A stretch of 45,418 nucleotides of DNA from Anaerolineales bacterium (GTDB lineage Bacteria > Chloroflexota > Anaerolineae > Anaerolineales > UBA6668). Both the position numbers and the translations under genes were made by a program. The stretch is taken from positions 5,908 to 51,325 of the forward strand of contig JAHDIM010000007.1 of assembly GCA_020630805.1 (NCBI GenBank). The letters are read 5' to 3'. Shown here piece after piece: positions 5,424 to 35,968 of the stretch (positions within the stretch are counted from its first letter, which is position 1; the number at the start of each line of letters is the position of its first letter). The notes beneath the pieces were generated by a model. It saw only the letters and a program-made list of their open reading frames with translations, was not told the origin of the DNA and did not search any database.

Positions 5424-5581
5424 GGAACCACGAAGTGACACTAAGGGTCACGAAGAAAGGCTTCATCAAGATTTAATGTCTTATGCTTTCTGTCTGCTCA
5501 CAAACTCTAAAGATATCGGCTTATAGAATCTAAGGCTAACTCAAAACCTCTTCGTGCTTCTTCGTGTGATTTCGTGGTTTT
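5424..5581 (+). repeat. intergenic inverted repeat of degenerate CACGAAG units
   Basis: The arms are 5424-5460 and 5547-5581. The left arm reads AACCACGAAG, then CACTAAG, then CACGAAG at 9-10 base spacing; the right arm is its imperfect reverse complement (TTCGTG repeated three times, ending in CGTGGTT). It fills most of the gap between the CotH gene and the MBOAT gene. It has the same architecture as the repeat at 31816-31925. It could form a long imperfect hairpin in RNA, but there is no U-tract typical of a terminator. Confidence 0.8.
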
Positions 5582-11943: not shown

Positions 11944-13992
11944 ATGCACCGCTATTGGTGCCGCCAAATGATAATACTATCTTCTGCGCTTGTCGCGCTT
12001 TTCTACGCATTGATTTGCATACTCTTGGGAACTTGGTTGCTCGGCGCAACAGATACGCCTGCCCAGTCACCGAAAGTAAGTTTACGATTCATACTAGGTC
12101 AAATTTTACTAGGCTCTCTCTGGATGCTGTTGGGGATTGGGCGACAGTTTAGCAGTGGAATTGTTTTAGCTATTCTAACGATTGTATTGCTGGTCACGCT
12201 GTTTCGTGCGCGTACGGCAGCTTTACATGTATTTCAGTCTGGTTTTACTCGCCTAACGCAGGTGTTTCAAGACAATCCGTTACTGGCAAGCTTGTTATTG
12301 TTGACTGGAACTACTTACGGACTCAGTGCGCTACTCTTGCCGCTGCGCTTCGGCTCAGGCGATGGATTTTTCTATTACATGATTACGCCGCGCATGCTAG
12401 CCGAGTTTGGTGAGCTTTTACCGGCAGTCGGTCGCGAAGGCTCAATGCAGCGTGGCCTACTCAGCGAAATGAGTTATGCCGTTATGCTGTTGTTTAGCGG
12501 TGAACATGCGGCTGCCTTTCTAGCTTGGCTAACTGGCTTGGCTTCTATGGCAATTGTCTTTGATCTTGCGTTACAAGCAAAAGCCTCAACCCGTGCGGCG
12601 TTGCTTGTTATTGTATTGTTCCTGTCCTCCTCCGGCTTTTATCTGTTTTTCAACGACGGCAAGGTAGAGATGTTTGCTTTAGCCTATGCTTTAGCAGGTG
12701 TGTGGATGGTGTTCAACTTAGATCCACAGCGTTTGTCCATAAGGGCCTGTGCTGCCGCTGGTGCGTTCTGTGTGGCAAGCGCCTTGGGTAAACCAGCTTT
12801 TGCAATCACTGCGATTGGAATTGGAGTTGTCTTTGGCTGGCAACTTTTACGTGCGATTTATCACGGGGCAATTGAAAACCAAATTGCAGAGCAACTCAAA
12901 AGAGTGGTGCTGGTTAGTGCTGCATTTGGCGTTGCTAGCCTTTTGACACTGTTGCCACATTCAATCAAGAATGACCTTTGGTATCGATCACCGCTGTCTC
13001 CATTCGCGCGAGTGTCAAGCGTGTTGCCACAAACGTTGCGCTCTCAAGAATTGCAAAATCGGTTTCAGATTTATCCTGACCTAGTCCCAGATCCGCCAAG
13101 TCATGATGCTCCCGTAGTCGCGCCAGAAGGTGGGTTTGAACGCATAAAATGGTTTACCGTAGAGACGACCGATACAGAAATTGTGGCCCAATATTGGGCA
13201 CAGTTGACTTACATTCAGCAGGGATTTCAAATCGGCCGAATTTCGCCCTTGTTGTTGGGCTTACTGCCCTTTTTGTTTACGATTCGTGGAAAGTCATGGC
13301 GTAAACATCGACTGGCCTTGTTATTGGCAACTTTTGGCATTCTTTCCATTGTTTACTACGTGCGGCGTTTTGTGTTCTTGGTCAGTGTGCGGACCTTATT
13401 ACCAAGCTTAGTCTTGCTGTTTCCACTCTTTGCAATTCTGGCTGACAAATTGTGGCGCAAGGTGGATCATCTCCCACTTAGCAATGTCATCGTGACGGGG
13501 GTCATTGCCTTTACCTTGCTAGGCTATTCCAATTTTGATCAAGAGTTCGCGCGTTTTCAGCAAGTCTATGTTGAGAATGATCCGGCCTGTGCTAACGGCA
13601 ATGTAGATGGCATAGCCTTTTGCGAGATCTCACAATATCTCAATGCGCATGCACCAGAAGGTGCACGCGTGGCAAATATTACGTATCCTTGGTGGTTGCG
13701 GCAAGATTTGTTTGCTTGCCTCCCTTCAACTTACGAGCGACGCACATATGATGACAACTGGGAGTTGCTCATCAATCGTGGCTTTACCTACTATGTCGAA
13801 GATATTGGGATGGAAGAGCGGTCAGCGCAGTTCGAAATTCCAGACGGGCTAAATATCGAAGTGGTGTTTGAAAACAGCAAACGTCGTATCTATCACTTGC
13901 AACTCGATGCGCCGATTGAAACAGAAACCGTTTGTGCACCGGATACGAGTGGGGCGTGGGAAATAACTTTTATGGATAGTGCCACCCAATGA
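11944..13992 (+). CDS. large GT-C-like polytopic membrane protein
   Basis: A 682-residue protein with many hydrophobic helices and a C-terminal extracytoplasmic region (about residues 540-682). A polar loop FGSGDGFFYYMITPRMLAEF at about residues 137-156 occupies the position of the catalytic acidic loop of GT-C transferases. No specific family is recognised. An alternative ATG lies at 11968, giving a shorter signal-like N-terminus; a possible -10 box (GATACT, 11938-11943) directly before the first ATG favours the later one. The next small gene overlaps its stop as ATGA. Confidence 0.6.
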   Translation: MHRYWCRQMIILSSALVALFYALICILLGTWLLGATDTPAQSPKVSLRFILGQILLGSLWMLLGIGRQFSSGIVLAILTIVLLVTLFRARTAALHVFQSGFTRLTQVFQDNPLLASLLLLTGTTYGLSALLLPLRFGSGDGFFYYMITPRMLAEFGELLPAVGREGSMQRGLLSEMSYAVMLLFSGEHAAAFLAWLTGLASMAIVFDLALQAKASTRAALLVIVLFLSSSGFYLFFNDGKVEMFALAYALAGVWMVFNLDPQRLSIRACAAAGAFCVASALGKPAFAITAIGIGVVFGWQLLRAIYHGAIENQIAEQLKRVVLVSAAFGVASLLTLLPHSIKNDLWYRSPLSPFARVSSVLPQTLRSQELQNRFQIYPDLVPDPPSHDAPVVAPEGGFERIKWFTVETTDTEIVAQYWAQLTYIQQGFQIGRISPLLLGLLPFLFTIRGKSWRKHRLALLLATFGILSIVYYVRRFVFLVSVRTLLPSLVLLFPLFAILADKLWRKVDHLPLSNVIVTGVIAFTLLGYSNFDQEFARFQQVYVENDPACANGNVDGIAFCEISQYLNAHAPEGARVANITYPWWLRQDLFACLPSTYERRTYDDNWELLINRGFTYYVEDIGMEERSAQFEIPDGLNIEVVFENSKRRIYHLQLDAPIETETVCAPDTSGAWEITFMDSATQ

Positions 13993-27056: not shown

Positions 27057-27070
27057 TCCAAAAACCTAAA

Positions 27071-27122
27071 ACAAAGCGGGTTCCTTCTCAAAACCAAGGT
27101 TATAAGTAGGAACCCGCTTTGT
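27071..27122. repeat. strong hairpin, copy 1 of a tandem pair (probable two-way terminator)
   Basis: Perfect 15-bp inverted repeat ACAAAGCGGGTTCCT (27071-27085) with AGGAACCCGCTTTGT (27108-27122), loop of 22 bases. It lies between convergent genes. Copy 2 lies 104 bp on. Confidence 0.85.
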
Positions 27123-27174
27123 ATTTAAGACTGTGCTTTCGACCAGTCCCCCGTGGCTTAGGCTTAACCTCTTA

Positions 27175-27224
27175 CGAGGCGGGTTCCTCCTCAAGACTAA
27201 GATCATAAAAAGGAACCCGCCTCG
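27175..27224. repeat. strong hairpin, copy 2 of a tandem pair
   Basis: Perfect 14-bp inverted repeat CGAGGCGGGTTCCT (27175-27188) with AGGAACCCGCCTCG (27211-27224), also with a 22-base loop. The stem core GCGGGTTCCT and about 15 of 22 loop bases are shared with copy 1; outer stem bases differ but stay paired. Confidence 0.85.
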
Positions 27225-27238
27225 TGCATGCTTGGCCG

Positions 27239-30272: not shown

Positions 30273-31811
30273 ATGTCACAACGCCGTCGTAAACAATCCA
30301 AAGCGAACCGCAAACGTTCTTCATTCCATGCCGTGCCATGGAAAAAGCTTGTCAATCCTTACGCACCGCTAGAAATCTGCACTGCAGAACAAGTCGAGCA
30401 GATTCACGAAGCCACCTTAGACATTATCGAAAATATAGGCATTGATTTTATGGATGCCGAAGCGCTCTCGATCTGGGAAAAAGCGGGGGCCAAGGTTGAC
30501 CATAAAGCGCAGCACGTTTGGGTCGACCGTGGCTTGCTTATGGAGCTTGTATCTAAAGCGCCGTCAAAGTTCACGCTCAAAGGTCGTAACCCCGGACGCG
30601 ACATGATTGTCGGTGGCAATCACATCAACTTCCTGCCGGGCGGTGGGTTTGCGTTTATCAGCGATTTAGACACCGGCAAACGCGCTGGCACACGTGACGA
30701 CTTTGCCAATCTGCTCAAGCTGATTCAGATGAGCAACGTGATGCATGGCACTGGCGTGGCGCTGATCGAAATGATGGATGTGCCTGTGTCGTATCGGCAT
30801 TTGCAGCGCGTTTTGCTGAATATGACATTGAGCGACAAGCCGACTACTGGCGCAGCCCATGATCGCATCATTCCGCAAGACGTGCTCAATATGGCACGCA
30901 TCGCGTTTGGAGATGATGCCTTAGATACTCCGGTTGATCCGGTGATTGTGGGTATTGTCAATGTCAATAGCCCGCTGCGCTATGACGAACGCATGCTGGG
31001 TGGCCTCATTAGCTATGCCCGCGCCGGACAAGCGTTGATCATGACGCCGTTCATCGTGGCTGGTGCGATGAGTCCCATTACCATTGCTGGCGCGATTGCC
31101 CAACAAAATGCGGAGGTTCTCGCTGGGACTGCACTGGCGCAACTCATCCGACCCAATACGCCTGTGCTCTATGGCCCTTTCTCTACCAACGCCGATATGC
31201 GCTCGGGCAGTCCCGCATTTGGGACACCCGAAGGCGGTTGGGTATCTGTCATGGCGGCGCAAATGGCGCGTTATTACAACTTGCCATCGCGCGGTAATGG
31301 TGGGCTGACGAACGCGAATTCTAATGATGCACAGTCTGCATATGAAGCGCTCTGGACACTTTGGCCCACTGTAATGGCCCACAGCAATTACATCATGCAC
31401 GGTGCAGGCTGGCTGGAAACTGGACTCACTATCTCTTTCGAAAAGCTGATGATCGACATGGAAAACTTGGCGATGTTCCAGCATTTTTTGCAAGGCATTG
31501 AGGTCAACAAAGATACTTTGGCCGTCGATATGATGGCCGAAGTGGGACCGGGAGGGCATCACTTTGGCACGCCACACACGCAAGCCCGTTTTAGTAATGC
31601 TTTCTATGAACCGTTCCTAAGCACTCGGTTGTCAATGGAAAACTGGCAGACCCAAGGCGCGCCGGATACGGCCCAACGCGCCAACACACTCTGGAAGCAA
31701 TTACTCAAAGAATACGAGCCGCCGCCCATTGACTCTAACGTCAAACAAGCGCTAGAAGACTACGTCGCCAAACGCGAACGCGAACTAGATGGCGTGGATT
31801 TGTATTACTGA
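30273..31811 (+). CDS. trimethylamine methyltransferase (MttB) superfamily protein, non-pyrrolysine
   Basis: A 512-residue MttB-family protein with a basic N-terminus (MSQRRRKQSKANRKR), then AEQVEQIHEATLDIIENIG, NHINFLPGGGFAF and SPITIAGAIAQQNAEVLAGT. The frame has no internal amber codon, so it is not the pyrrolysine TMA enzyme. Non-Pyl members include glycine betaine:corrinoid methyltransferases. The partner corrinoid protein and its activase are absent from this window. The substrate is probably a quaternary amine, consistent with the flanking demethylase genes; this is inferred. Confidence 0.87.
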   Translation: MSQRRRKQSKANRKRSSFHAVPWKKLVNPYAPLEICTAEQVEQIHEATLDIIENIGIDFMDAEALSIWEKAGAKVDHKAQHVWVDRGLLMELVSKAPSKFTLKGRNPGRDMIVGGNHINFLPGGGFAFISDLDTGKRAGTRDDFANLLKLIQMSNVMHGTGVALIEMMDVPVSYRHLQRVLLNMTLSDKPTTGAAHDRIIPQDVLNMARIAFGDDALDTPVDPVIVGIVNVNSPLRYDERMLGGLISYARAGQALIMTPFIVAGAMSPITIAGAIAQQNAEVLAGTALAQLIRPNTPVLYGPFSTNADMRSGSPAFGTPEGGWVSVMAAQMARYYNLPSRGNGGLTNANSNDAQSAYEALWTLWPTVMAHSNYIMHGAGWLETGLTISFEKLMIDMENLAMFQHFLQGIEVNKDTLAVDMMAEVGPGGHHFGTPHTQARFSNAFYEPFLSTRLSMENWQTQGAPDTAQRANTLWKQLLKEYEPPPIDSNVKQALEDYVAKRERELDGVDLYY

Positions 31812-31815
31812 GGAA

Positions 31816-31925
31816 GGGGAAGAATCCACGAATATCACTAATAATCACGAATTTTCGCGTATCCACACGCAATGGCTACAAAAGCTTCCATTCGTGCATA
31901 TTCGTGTAATTCGTGGATTCCCCCC
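31816..31925 (+). repeat. intergenic inverted repeat of degenerate CACGAAT units
   Basis: Left arm 31816-31854: GAATCCACGAAT, CACTAAT, CACGAAT at about 9-base steps. Right arm 31887-31925 is its imperfect reverse complement (ATTCGTG three times, ending GTGGATTC). It fills the gap before the aminotransferase; the right arm reads through in frame with that gene, which creates a false N-terminal extension. Confidence 0.85.
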
Positions 31926-31940
31926 AATTTGGACAACACT

Positions 31941-33230
31941 ATGAACGCAGACAAAATCAAACAATTAGATAAACGCCACAATGTGCATAGCTGGACTGTC
32001 AATGATGCACTTGACCCACTCGTGGTTGAACGCGCTGAAGGGGTCTACTTTTGGGACGCTGACGGCAAGCAATACCTCGATTTTTCGTCGCAGTTGGTCA
32101 ATATGAATATTGGGCACCAGCACCCGAAGGTTATTGAGGCCATTAAAGAACAGGTCGATAAGCTGTGTTACATCTCGCCGAGTATGGCAACGTCTGCGCG
32201 CTCCAAAGCAGCAGAAGCGATTGCCAACGTCACGCCGGGGGACTTGAATCAGATCTTCTTTACGCTTGGTGGGGCAGACGCCAACGAAAACGCAATTAAG
32301 CTGGCGCGGCTGTTCACGGGCAAGCAGAAGATCCTTGCGAAATGGCGATCCTATCACGGTGCAACCATGGGCGCGATCTCTGTGTCGGCTGATCCACGCC
32401 GTCCGGCAGTCGAGCCGGGCGTGCCGGGTGCGGTGCATTTCATGGACCCATTCTGCTATCGCTGTCCGTTTGGGTTGGAATATCCCAGTTGCAATTTGCA
32501 TTGTGCGGAACATGTCAACCAGACCGTACAAATGGAATCACCAGACACGATTGCGGCCATCATTTTGGAGTCGCAAACGGGCGGGCCGGGCTTTTATGCA
32601 CCACCACCGGGCTATATGGAACGTGTGCGCGAAATCTGTGATGAAAACGACATCCTGCTGATTTGTGATGAAGTGATGGTTGGCTTTGGGCGTACGGGTG
32701 AATGGTTTGCCATTCAGCATACTGACGCTGTGCCTGACATGATCACAATGGCAAAGGGCTTGACCTGTGGCTATGTGCCACTCGGCGCAGTTGCCATTTC
32801 TGACCGCATTATGGACGCGCTGCGGGGTAAATATTTGTATGTCGGTTTGACCTTCAATGCACACCCTGTGAGCTGTGCGGCGGCTGTTGCAACCATTGGC
32901 GTTTATGAAGATGAAGGTCTCATCGGGAAATCGGCGGAACTTGGCAAAGTCTTGCTGGGTCGCATTACCGAAATGATGGATAAGCACACTGTTGTTGGTG
33001 ATGTACGTGGCACGGGCCTATTTGCTTGCTTAGATCTCGTCGAAGATCGCGACAGCAAAACACCCCTCGCTGGCGAAAAAATGCAGCAACTCAAGGGTCT
33101 GTTACTCGCCCAAGGCCTTAGCACTAATCTAATCGGCAACCGCCTGTTTATTGGTCCACCGCTGATCATTACCGAAGAACAACTGCATCACGGGCTGGAT
33201 ATCATCGATACGGCTCTCGAAGCTATCTAA
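31941..33230 (+). CDS. class III (omega) aminotransferase
   Basis: A 429-residue PLP enzyme: GKQYLDFSSQLVNMNIGHQHP near the start, PLP-contact motif LICDEVMVGFGRTGEWFA and catalytic Lys272 in MAKGLTCGYVPLG. The subgroup resembles taurine- or beta-alanine:pyruvate aminotransferases. It would deaminate an omega-amino acid or amine produced in this cluster. ATG 31941 is chosen: an earlier in-frame start (31872) would be encoded by the inverted repeat. Confidence 0.92.
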   Translation: MNADKIKQLDKRHNVHSWTVNDALDPLVVERAEGVYFWDADGKQYLDFSSQLVNMNIGHQHPKVIEAIKEQVDKLCYISPSMATSARSKAAEAIANVTPGDLNQIFFTLGGADANENAIKLARLFTGKQKILAKWRSYHGATMGAISVSADPRRPAVEPGVPGAVHFMDPFCYRCPFGLEYPSCNLHCAEHVNQTVQMESPDTIAAIILESQTGGPGFYAPPPGYMERVREICDENDILLICDEVMVGFGRTGEWFAIQHTDAVPDMITMAKGLTCGYVPLGAVAISDRIMDALRGKYLYVGLTFNAHPVSCAAAVATIGVYEDEGLIGKSAELGKVLLGRITEMMDKHTVVGDVRGTGLFACLDLVEDRDSKTPLAGEKMQQLKGLLLAQGLSTNLIGNRLFIGPPLIITEEQLHHGLDIIDTALEAI

Positions 33231-33240
33231 ATAAAGACTC

Positions 33241-33306
33241 AACGCAGAGACGTGGAGAGCGCTGAGTTTTCTTGAATCACCTCAGCGCCCTCAGCGTCTC
33301 CGCGTT
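33241..33306 (+). repeat. intergenic inverted repeat (AACGCAGAGACG type)
   Basis: Arms 33241-33266 and 33281-33306 are reverse complements in 22 of 26 positions, with a 14-base loop. Left arm AACGCAGAGACG...GCGCTGAG; right arm CTCAGCGC...CGTCTCCGCGTT. Sequence unrelated to the neighbouring repeats, but same layout and same kind of position. Confidence 0.88.
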
Positions 33307-33329
33307 AAATATCCCCAAAGGAGAACAAC

Positions 33330-34637
33330 ATGAAACGCACTGCTGATGCAATCATCATTGGCGCTGGCATTATTGGCTGTGCCATCGCGTTTGAACTTGC
33401 CAAGAAAGGTTTCAAAACTCTTAATATCGATCGCTTGCCGACGGCTGGCTTTGGTCCAACCAGTAACTCGTGTGCCATTATTCGCGCACACTATTCGACC
33501 TTTGAGGGCACCGCCTTTGCCTATGACAATTTCTGGTACTGGCAAAACTGGGAAGACTATCTGGGCGCAAAAGATGAAAGTGGCTATGCCAAATATCATG
33601 ACACTGGCACAATCTGGGTGCCGAATCAGGTGCATGGCTACAAGCACATTTTGGAGCTTTACGAACAAGTTGGTGTGGCTTACGAAATCTGGGATCTCAA
33701 CAAATTCCAAGATCGTTTGCCAGTGGTGACGACCCGTTCAAACTGGCCGCCCCGTCGCCCTGAAAATGAAGACTTTTGGGAAGAGTCAGATGAGACCATC
33801 AAGCTGGCCATCTTTACGCCTGGCTCTGGTTACGTGAGTGATCCGCAGTTAGCAACGCACAATCTGATGCGGGCGGCAGAAGCCAATGGTGGTGAATTCT
33901 TGTTCAATCAGGAAGTGACTGCCATTCGCCAAGAGAATAATCGCGTGCAGGGAGTGACGTTGAAAGACGGCACCGAAATCGATGCGCCGATTCTGATCAA
34001 CGTTGCGGGGCCGCATTCGTTTCTCATCAACCGCATGGCGGGTGTGGAAGACAGTATGGCAGTCAAAACGCAGCCGCTGCGCCATGAGGTACATCATGTG
34101 CCGTCGCCAGCGGGCTATAACTTCGAAACAGACGGCATTCATGTTTCAGACGGTGATTCCTCGGTTTATTTCCGACCTGAAGTTGGTAACTCAATTTTGG
34201 TAGGCAGTGAAGACCCTGAGTGCGATGAAAAAGAATGGGTGTCAGACCCAGATGATTTCAATCGCACCTTGACCGATGCCCAGTGGAAGGCACAGGTCTA
34301 TCGGCTTGCCAAGCGCATTCCAGACTTACCCATCCCTGAGAAACCCAAAGGCGTGGTAGATCTCTACGACGTTTCTGACGATTGGATTCCCATCTATGAC
34401 AAATCCAGTTTAGATGGTTTTTATATGGCAATTGGCACCAGTGGTAATCAATTCAAAAACGCCGCCGGCGCCGGACATATGCTGTCTGAAATCATCCAAA
34501 TGTGTGAAAACGGGCAAGATCATGACAAAACCCCGATGCAGTACAAACTGCCAAACATTGGCTTGACCATCAACGCTGGCTTCTTCTCACGGAATCGTGA
34601 AGTGAATCCGGATAGTAGTTTTTCAGTTTTAGGGTGA
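33330..34637 (+). CDS. DAO-family FAD-dependent oxidoreductase (sarcosine oxidase-like)
   Basis: A 435-residue flavoprotein: IIIGAGIIGCAIAFELAKKG at residues 8-27, NSCAIIRAHYST, and a C-terminal GFYMAIGTSGNQFKNAAGAGHM motif that closes the FAD site in sarcosine/glycine oxidase-like enzymes. It probably oxidises an N-methyl or secondary amine. Strong SD AAAGGAG lies 8 bases before the ATG. Confidence 0.88.
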   Translation: MKRTADAIIIGAGIIGCAIAFELAKKGFKTLNIDRLPTAGFGPTSNSCAIIRAHYSTFEGTAFAYDNFWYWQNWEDYLGAKDESGYAKYHDTGTIWVPNQVHGYKHILELYEQVGVAYEIWDLNKFQDRLPVVTTRSNWPPRRPENEDFWEESDETIKLAIFTPGSGYVSDPQLATHNLMRAAEANGGEFLFNQEVTAIRQENNRVQGVTLKDGTEIDAPILINVAGPHSFLINRMAGVEDSMAVKTQPLRHEVHHVPSPAGYNFETDGIHVSDGDSSVYFRPEVGNSILVGSEDPECDEKEWVSDPDDFNRTLTDAQWKAQVYRLAKRIPDLPIPEKPKGVVDLYDVSDDWIPIYDKSSLDGFYMAIGTSGNQFKNAAGAGHMLSEIIQMCENGQDHDKTPMQYKLPNIGLTINAGFFSRNREVNPDSSFSVLG

Positions 34638-34639
34638 CA

Positions 34640-34733
34640 TAGTTGGCTAGTTTGATAGTTGGTAGGTTTGTTAGTGGGTCTTGGGTTACCCTAACGCACC
34701 AACAAACTAACCAACTTACCAACCAACAAACAA
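34640..34733 (+). repeat. intergenic inverted repeat of TAGTTGGT-like units
   Basis: Left arm (about 34640-34687) is built of TAGTTGG, TAGTTTG, TAGTTGG, TAGGTTTG, TTAGTGGG units; right arm (about 34688-34733) is the imperfect reverse complement (ACCAACAAACTAACCAAC...). It starts 3 bases after one stop and ends 4 bases before the next ATG, so the whole gap is repeat. Confidence 0.82.
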
Positions 34734-34737
34734 AATC

Positions 34738-35175
34738 ATGAACGTATACGCAAGCACAGTAATCAACGCATCCATTGATGATGTCTGGCAGGTCATGCGC
34801 GACTTTGTTGGGCTGACTGCATGGAGCCCTTCTGTCACGAAGGCATTTATCACAAACGACAAAGCGGCAGATCAGGTCGGGGCAGTTCGGCATCTAGACA
34901 TCAGCGATGGCTCGGTCTTTATTGAGACGTTGGTGGAATTGTCGGACCACGACACTTATTTCAAATATGACATTGTGGACGGGCCGCTGCCGGTAACAAA
35001 CTACATCGCCACGATGCGCTTACAACCAATTACAGACGGCAACCAGACCTTTGCGTCTTGGTCTGCCGCGTTTAGTACGCCTGACCAGCATCGCGAAGAG
35101 ATGCAACACGTCGTTGGGACGCTGATCTGCACTGGTGGACTGGCGGGTCTGAAAGCATACATGGAAGGAAAATGA
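34738..35175 (+). CDS. SRPBCC (START/polyketide-cyclase-like) protein
   Basis: A 145-residue protein with the typical start VYASTVINASIDDVWQVMRDF, a central NYIATMRLQPI strand and FASWSAAF, and a C-terminal long helix (VVGTLICTGGLAGLKAYM). The fold binds hydrophobic ligands; this subgroup is often annotated polyketide cyclase/dehydrase. Its role in the amine cluster is not clear. No SD is visible because the repeat runs almost up to the ATG. Confidence 0.83.
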   Translation: MNVYASTVINASIDDVWQVMRDFVGLTAWSPSVTKAFITNDKAADQVGAVRHLDISDGSVFIETLVELSDHDTYFKYDIVDGPLPVTNYIATMRLQPITDGNQTFASWSAAFSTPDQHREEMQHVVGTLICTGGLAGLKAYMEGK

Positions 35176-35245
35176 ATACACGGACGCGGAAGACAGCACG
35201 GATGATTAACAAAAAATATCTGTGTTGTCTTCCTATCTGTGTATT
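35175..35245 (+). repeat. intergenic inverted repeat (ACACGGA/GGAAGACA type)
   Basis: Arms 35175-35207 and 35215-35245. Left arm AATACACGGA...GGAAGACAGCACGGAT; right arm is the reverse complement with a few changes (ATCTGTGTTGTCTTCC...TCTGTGTATT). The first base of the arm is the last base of the SRPBCC stop codon, and the SD of the next gene follows directly. Confidence 0.85.
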
Positions 35246-35260
35246 AGAAAGGAGAAGGAA

Positions 35261-35968
35261 ATGGCTGATCGATTAGGGTATCTAAAAATATTTGGGGTGC
35301 TAATTCCTGGCATGAACAGCGTGGTGGAGCCAGAATTGGCAATGTTGCGTGTCCCCGGTGTGACCAATCAGACCGCGCGGCATGTGATTGCGCCGGGCTT
35401 GAAGACGCCGGGTATTGAACAAGTGATGGAGTTGCTGTTGACGTGCAGTCCGGATGCCCTGTTGCTAGGACTTACAACAGAATCGGCTGAAGGCGGGTTG
35501 CAGGCGTTAGCAAGTCTTGCTGAGACGCTGGCTGAAAAGTCTGGATTACCAGTATATTCAGGCTCATATGCGAGCTATGCCGCATTGCGCGCGATCGGCG
35601 CAACCAAAATCGCTGTTGTTACCCCGTTTGATGATGAAAAGAATGCGACAGTGGTCAAGCCACAGGTCGAAAGCCAAGGATTTGAGGTTATTTCTATTGC
35701 TGGAACAGCAGCGCCCTCTTTAGAAGCGATTGCAGGCGCATCAGATGAAGAAATTCAGGGCGTGTTTGCAGCGGCTAATCATCCAGATGCCGATGCTATT
35801 TTGCAGCTAGGAACTGCTTTGCCAGTCGTGGATTTAGTTGGTAGCTTGGAAGAACGGACAGCGAAGACAGTTGTTGCTTGCAACGCTGCGCTCTATTGGC
35901 AAGCCTTGCGTGAGAGTGGAATAAGCGACGCAATTCAAGGTTATGGTCGCTTGTTAGCGGATTACTAG
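35261..35968 (+). CDS. Asp/Glu racemase / arylmalonate decarboxylase-fold protein lacking both catalytic cysteines
   Basis: A 235-residue protein of the Asp/Glu racemase superfamily, closest in layout to maleate cis-trans isomerase and arylmalonate decarboxylase: YLKIFGVLIPGMNSVVEPE, ALRAIGATKIAVVTPF, and a WQALRESG...GYGRLL ending. The two Cys positions that define the family are replaced: LLLGLTTES (Leu71) where ACTSGS is usual, and LQLGTALP (Gly184) where SCTAL is usual. Strong SD GGAGAAGGAA before ATG 35261; the earlier start at 35222 lies in the repeat. Function unknown. Confidence 0.78.
   Translation: MADRLGYLKIFGVLIPGMNSVVEPELAMLRVPGVTNQTARHVIAPGLKTPGIEQVMELLLTCSPDALLLGLTTESAEGGLQALASLAETLAEKSGLPVYSGSYASYAALRAIGATKIAVVTPFDDEKNATVVKPQVESQGFEVISIAGTAAPSLEAIAGASDEEIQGVFAAANHPDADAILQLGTALPVVDLVGSLEERTAKTVVACNAALYWQALRESGISDAIQGYGRLLADY

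Follow-up and report, generated by a model that had tools for sequence, protein, structure and literature searches.

Inverted arrays of short tandem units in the operon gaps of an Anaerolineales bacterium: probable gene-less forms of small inserted elements that recur across phyla

The hairpins considered here lie between protein genes in a 45,418-nucleotide stretch of an Anaerolineales genome (contig JAHDIM010000007.1, positions 5,908 to 51,325; 'the window' below means this whole stretch), and their arms consist of short degenerate tandem units. They recall several described systems. Repetitive extragenic palindromes and their hairpin-forming doublets (REPs and REPINs), served by Y1-type REP-associated tyrosine transposases (RAYT), likewise combine short many-copy intergenic palindromes with a dedicated chromosomal enzyme gene, and the short tandemly repeated repetitive (STRR) sequences of cyanobacteria resemble the present arrays: they too consist of degenerate tandem units of 7 nt, lie in gaps, are patchily distributed over phyla and have no explained origin. 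Miniature inverted-repeat transposable elements (MITEs) are comparable as gene-less elements with terminal inverted sequences common to a gene-bearing form. TAACTGA heptamer repeats are degenerate, tandem, intergenic, patchy across phyla and also unexplained in origin, and nearly all of them form direct arrays (PMC4679880). The intervening sequence (IVS) of 23S rRNA, for example in Coxiella burnetii, is a selfish element with an S23p open reading frame (ORF) in a stem-loop (PMC4990558).

The elements share with the IVS their small size, an inverted-repeat stem and one four-helix-bundle ORF in the loop, an arrangement that recurs where PF05635 genes lie between arrays; they differ from it in lying between protein genes rather than within 23S rRNA, in arms that are degenerate tandem-unit arrays, in having GxxExxY as the main gene and in reaching hundreds of solo copies per genome. 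REP/REPIN systems are set apart by the enzyme, which here is a predicted PD-(D/E)XK protein of Cas4-like type, by our arms being arrays of 7-nt cores and by the lack of Y1 in the richest genomes; MITEs by the lack here of a transposase of known class, of any visible target-site duplication and of internal-deletion remnants; and TAACTGA repeats and STRRs by the pairing of our arrays in inversion and their linkage to genes. We conclude that the window hairpins are probably solo copies without a gene, belonging to a class of small inserted elements that crosses phylum boundaries. We found no description of such a gene-linked class in the searchable open literature, and searches of the open-access literature by unit strings or repeat terms returned no description of these hairpins.

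A preliminary description of the window had claimed inverted repeats of short degenerate tandem units in five gaps, at 5.4, 31.8, 33.2, 34.6 and 35.2 kb, and all five were found. The first (5426..5579, arms 5426-5456 and 5549-5579) is of the CACGAAG type, with CACGAAG/CACTAAG cores and non-complementary linkers. The second (31816..31924, arms 31816-31852 and 31890-31924) is of the CACGAAT type, reads GAATC-[CACNAAT]-2-[CACNAAT]-3-[CACNAAT], mirrored, and begins 5 nt past the stop of an mttB-like gene; the CACGAA units that these two copies were said to share are real, in two types. The third (33241..33306, arms 33241-33266 and 33281-33306) has CGCNGAG units, the fourth (34640..34731) 8-mer TAGTTGG/TAGTTTG units without a C-R-C core, and the fifth (35176..35244) is of the CACGGA type (CACGGA..GGAAGAC..CACGGAT, mirrored), its onset being the first base past a stop codon. 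A core grammar, C-R-C-N-R-A-K, is common to four of the five. The remaining families had been thought unrelated in sequence, which holds for the 34.6-kb hairpin only, since those at 33.2 and 35.2 kb share this grammar with CACGAAT/G; the 34.6-kb hairpin, with its period of 8, groups with heptamer and octamer families of the same genome (TCAATAG, TCAGCC, GATAGAA and others). RNA folding gave -44.5, -39.0, -33.2 and -36.0 kcal/mol for the hairpins at 31.8, 33.2, 34.6 and 35.2 kb (z = -6.5, -6.4, -3.7 and -8.2, no shuffle being equally good), and none of these four stems is followed by a T-run, as an intrinsic terminator would be. Scanning by minimum free energy performed poorly for detecting such hairpins. 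Rfam gave no match across the window, and the window hairpins as blastn queries gave none among plasmids.

The CACGAA family keeps a rigid layout: (GAAT)C[CACNAAT]-2 nt-[CACNAAT]-3 nt-[CACNAAT]-loop-mirror, or [CACNAAG] with linkers of 2-3 nt. Over 72 arms, G, T or A occupies core position 4, with C there only rarely, and the linkers are free and C-poor; the arm search demanded near-consensus cores, so the fixity of the cores partly reflects this selection. That the arms vary but stay complementary applies to the cores alone, as the linkers do not pair. A seeming anti-complementarity of the linkers (0.15 vs 0.33) in the first 32 elements of the genome (the window and L043-L080) was not replicated in 8 hold-out and 12 sister elements and was dropped.

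The hairpins recur throughout the window's genome, a draft assembly of 4.67 Mb in 500 contigs, and far beyond it, as the preliminary description had supposed. Inverted repeats with a score of at least 28 number 71 in 331 kb, against 1 in a Markov null, and those with tandem-unit arms 62 in 702 kb, 61 of them intergenic and one within an ORF. Co-directional, divergent and convergent gaps (330, 61 and 54 in number) hold 40, 6 and 6 elements, roughly in proportion, so a gap-specific role in mRNA, which had been proposed, is not indicated. The pattern TTCGTGN{1,5}TTCGTG occurs 116 times in this genome vs 3 times in a reversed control. Its distribution over the phylum is patchy, with three genomes from a single genus carrying ~750-780 TTCGTG pairs each and the sister genus carrying none. 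The exact 7-2-7-3-7 CACGAAT pattern (CACGAATNNCACGAATNNNCACGAAT, 21 fixed bases) is present in at least 119 genome contigs where ~0.1 would be expected. Among the matches listed it spans about a dozen phyla, with carriers in Flavobacterium, Prevotella, Verrucomicrobia, Planctomycetota, Acidobacteria, Calditrichota, Cloacimonadota, Zetaproteobacteria, Spirochaetia, Ignavibacteria, Kapaibacteria, Marinimicrobia and Chloroflexi, and 51 of 91 such matches have a mirrored arm under a strict test. The pattern is also found in 22 viral contigs, two of which encode GxxExxY relatives, and viruses are a possible vector of the elements.

Comparison of the same gaps in two sister species (G001 and G002; 71-84% nucleotide identity over aligned stretches) shows how specific to lineage the hairpins are. 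At 31.8 kb there is at most a decayed piece; the gap at 33.2 kb is empty in G002 and contains a different, short CACGGAT hairpin in G001; the 34.6-kb hairpin is missing from both species, where the spacer is 4-8 nt; and the 35.2-kb hairpin is missing from G002, where the flanking genes overlap. Since the sister gaps are mostly empty, overlapping or otherwise filled, the window hairpins are to be read as recent gains, made lineage by lineage. The hairpins had been noted to fill their gaps nearly from stop to start. This filling is seen (the median for co-directional gaps over the 702 kb is 78%), but its reason is the insertion itself: with sister gaps near zero, the gap looks filled because the element made it. 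One element is even nested within the loop of another (L074), and a single gap compared across ~18 Flavobacterium species is made up of several element families in a shifting mosaic. We also observed, in the Flavobacterium gap at reference positions 12466-12661 (L324-L343), a swap of whole hairpin families (CCTGCAAGG vs CCTAACAGG) within the same AGGTTTT..AAAACCT frame, and, in the gap of the L343 region and in L247, micro-inserts of ~26 nt (ACCCGAGCGATAGCGAACAGGCGAAGC) and 18 nt (TCCCGATAGCTATCGGGA) within other hairpin units.

The same genus shows what is conserved. Nine Flavobacterium orthologues of one CACGAAT-type element (CACGAATT) keep the letters C.C.AATT and show no covariation: paired cells make up 84.7% vs 86.1% in shuffles, with 3 double changes vs 3.6. 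Unit cores are conserved, while each arm drifts independently of the other in its linkers and at core position 4. The expected preservation of pairing between the arms was thus not borne out, and the constraint, as far as these alignments indicate, acts on the letters of the units and not on their pairing.

A gene ties these arrays together. At L048:1010-1462 (contig C318 of the window's genome) a CACGAAT element has a 389-nt loop with a 127-aa ORF, a GxxExxY protein by the TIGR04256 and PF13366 profiles (145.8 bits at a cut-off of 35 and 145.6 bits at a cut-off of 22, respectively). The insertion is flanked by trpC and trpF; in G002 the matches to these two genes enclose a stretch shorter by 270 nt, and in G001 a GxxExxY gene stands beside trpC. 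The same locus has a T-box leader at L048:5754-6051. Nearly all other GxxExxY genes also lie within inverted unit arrays, which often begin directly after a stop codon, with the words CACGGAG, CGCAGAG, CACAGAG, CGCAAAG, CACGAAA and CGCTGAG among others. When the upstream flank was aligned with the reverse-complemented downstream flank (score of at least 28), inverted arms were found at 34 of 47 GxxExxY genes, compared with 13 of 319 control ORFs (P ~1e-26) and 28 of 400 cross pairings. On a Sphingomonas parapaucimobilis plasmid (L464) the gene sits between fabD and fabG with the upstream array alone visible, and on a Bacteroides plasmid it adjoins radA. In a Prevotellaceae locus (L139:890-1842) a CACGAAT hairpin is repeated in tandem with a period of 163 nt close to a GxxExxY gene that has these arms too, and in C408:2617-3375 of the window's genome (L436) two PF13366 matches share one 287-aa frame, possibly a tandem-domain form.

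In a set of 151 genomes from the phylum, 29 of the 35 with PF13366 and 5 of the 116 without it are rich in arrays (P = 4e-20, kinship ignored), and two contrasts between sister genera (g74 vs g95 in f41, g72 vs g55 in f28) go in the same direction. The letters of the units track the clade of the GxxExxY protein: on a tree of 43 proteins, G at unit position 4 requires 3 changes (against a mean of 12.3 and a minimum of 8 in shuffles), position 7 requires 5 (mean 10.4, minimum 8) and the word as a whole 19 (mean 27.8, minimum 23). Arm words of the genes also recur in the solo arrays of the same genome, CACGAAA in G098, CGCAAAG in G224, and both CACGAAT and CGCTGAG in the window's genome, where the gene-bearing arms at L048 (CACGAAT) and L389 (CGCTGAG) match the hairpins at 31.8 and 33.2 kb; no such match was found for the one at 34.6 kb. 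The invariant residues of the protein are G29, E32, Y35, D72, E82-x-K84 and Q96xxxY100. Its structural model (predicted local distance difference test score 94.9) best matches Cas4 SSO0001 (Foldseek E 1.8e-5, Z 10.0), followed by lambda-type exonucleases and archaeal Hjc, and GxxExxY is accordingly modelled as a Cas4-like PD-(D/E)XK nuclease with a predicted intact D-ExK site. It has the fold and the D...ExK...QxxxY motif of the Cas4/lambda-exonuclease branch but, unlike Cas4, stands alone at 120-135 aa, needs no CRISPR context and sits within the arrays. We found no published link between GxxExxY (PF13366/TIGR04256) and such arrays or mobility in the open-access literature.

A parallel class involves the four-helix-bundle (23S-IVS) protein, PF05635, whose genes lie within inverted arrays at 6 of 7 loci tested (L044, L291, L292 and L457-L460), compared with the 13 of 319 control ORFs, and with an array period of 7 nt at 4 of the 7. 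The words around them on cyanobacterial plasmids are AGCTAAA, GGGAACA, AGGGTGT and ACAGGGA; on plasmids of Anabaena sp. 90 and Pseudanabaena galeata (L457, L458) the gene lies in heptamer arrays between cas6 and cas4. In three species of the window's genus, PF05635 genes carry different words at apparently one shared site. By analogy, the 34.6-kb hairpin may be a solo member of this class. Neither gene had been anticipated in the preliminary description.

We propose an element with two arms, each of them a row of short degenerate units that look like recognition sites (typically three cores of 7 nt, separated by linkers of 2-3 nt, with a period of 9-10), the second arm being the same array inverted; in the larger form one small gene lies between the arms. 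Units of the C-R-C-N-R-A-K type would belong with the Cas4-like PD-(D/E)XK nuclease of the GxxExxY family, and heptamer units with the four-helix-bundle protein. The elements would enter tight intergenic gaps and be tolerated there, the insertion producing the filled gap. We infer that GxxExxY moves or targets the arrays, and it might do so by recognising or cutting them, driving their spread by transposition or homing; the system could accordingly be either a transposon that also has copies lacking the gene, or a homing gene that settles in palindromes already present. More tentatively than for class membership itself, and with slightly less than even confidence, we suggest a bacterial mobile element of a kind not recognised before, in which a stand-alone Cas4-like GxxExxY protein recognises inverted unit arrays and spreads both itself and gene-less palindromes across phyla, with a four-helix-bundle/IVS parallel in the heptamer class.

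Several observations weigh against this proposal. In three presence/absence cases of tandem-unit elements at 92.6% identity there was no clean target-site duplication, and 12-23 nt of the local sequence were replaced along with the change; the window's genome yielded no recent copies that are nearly identical to one another. The loops of 48 solo elements contain no GxxExxY remnant above chance (best 21.2 bits vs 19-22.7 in nulls; an apparent gene remnant in the L072 loop was likewise no better than nulls), which gives no support to an origin by simple internal deletion from copies that bear the gene. Five genomes are rich in arrays yet gene-less (G152, G108, G062, G074, G148), six carry the gene without the arrays tested (G015, G081, G117, G150, G197, G205), and the contingency P value for co-occurrence takes no account of phylogeny. 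A sequence search found no solved homologue of GxxExxY.

The absence of gene remnants from solo loops would suit a different order of events, in which the palindromic arrays are primary and of other origin, and GxxExxY and the four-helix-bundle protein are encoded by selfish genes that target the loops of these arrays and settle there, in the manner of IVSs in 23S rRNA. Solo copies do number hundreds against 2-8 gene copies per genome, the tracking of words by protein clade would equally suit a nuclease homing to its own array family, and selfish IVSs that carry an S23p ORF in their stem-loop have been described (PMC4990558). However, this account leaves unexplained both the spread of solo arrays across phyla and their near-absence from gene-less genomes (5/116), and we consider it unlikely, though the strongest of the alternatives. 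That the hairpins are ordinary functional ones, kept between cotranscribed genes by selection as terminators, mRNA stabilisers or processing sites, agrees with their stable folds, with cores conserved in orthologues and with T-rich flanks in Flavobacterium, but it is improbable given the absence of covariation in the Flavobacterium orthologues, the indifference to gap orientation, the lack of a T-tail on the operon copies and the sister species that do without hairpins in the same gaps.

The preliminary description had envisaged a mechanism that makes or preserves hairpins, possibly by hairpin-templated expansion. Repeatable production in gaps is indeed seen genome-wide, while preservation of pairing is not. 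Copying of the arms from each other by slippage, template switching or quasi-palindrome correction would produce tandem units, inverted arms and imperfect repeats such as these; but the arms within an element are no more alike than between elements (TTGG 0.439 vs 0.523, TCAATAG 0.494 vs 0.521), CACGAA linkers differ between arms and the same words recur across phyla. Templated copying is unsupported for these families because there is neither covariation nor resemblance of arms within an element, and, being largely refuted, it is very improbable. Mobilisation of REP/REPIN-type palindromes by Y1 (RAYT) transposases would fit many-copy intergenic palindromes, and such transposases exist in some carrier genomes. 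The Y1_Tnp count is, however, 0 in G091 and G100 (~775 and ~750 TTCGTG pairs) and in G184 and G176, there is no GTAG/CGTC tag, and the associated gene is GxxExxY; as a general cause this is refuted and retains hardly any credibility.

The four operon gaps separate five genes on the forward strand: a gene of the trimethylamine methyltransferase (MTTB) family that precedes the first gap (30273..31811, PF06253), a class-III aminotransferase gene (31938..33230, PF00202), an FAD-dependent oxidoreductase (DAO) gene that served as anchor in the sister comparison (33330..34637), a Polyketide_cyc2 (SRPBCC) gene (34738..35175, PF10604) and an arylmalonate decarboxylase-like (Amdase) gene (35261..35968, PF17645). 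Two further kinds of hairpin were noticed. Repeated, terminator-like AAAGCGGGTTCC..GGAACCCGCTTT hairpins lie near gene ends (window 27067-27127 and 27174-27225; L045:12598; L052:10831; L053:1666), and separate short perfect palindromes, GTAGTGACATGAC..GTCATGTCACTAC, REP-like and with a GTAG tag, are found at L044:11715, L049:3818, L053:1614, L057:13234 and L060:3266.

Tandem-unit palindromes abound between genes in many phyla and have no agreed origin, and GxxExxY and four-helix-bundle proteins are widely annotated and have no known role. Tying each repeat grammar to a gene would merge both puzzles into one testable system, and it yields a candidate enzyme together with a candidate recognition code, the unit letters that track the protein clade. 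It would also account for gained operon hairpins that could otherwise be read as regulatory RNA.

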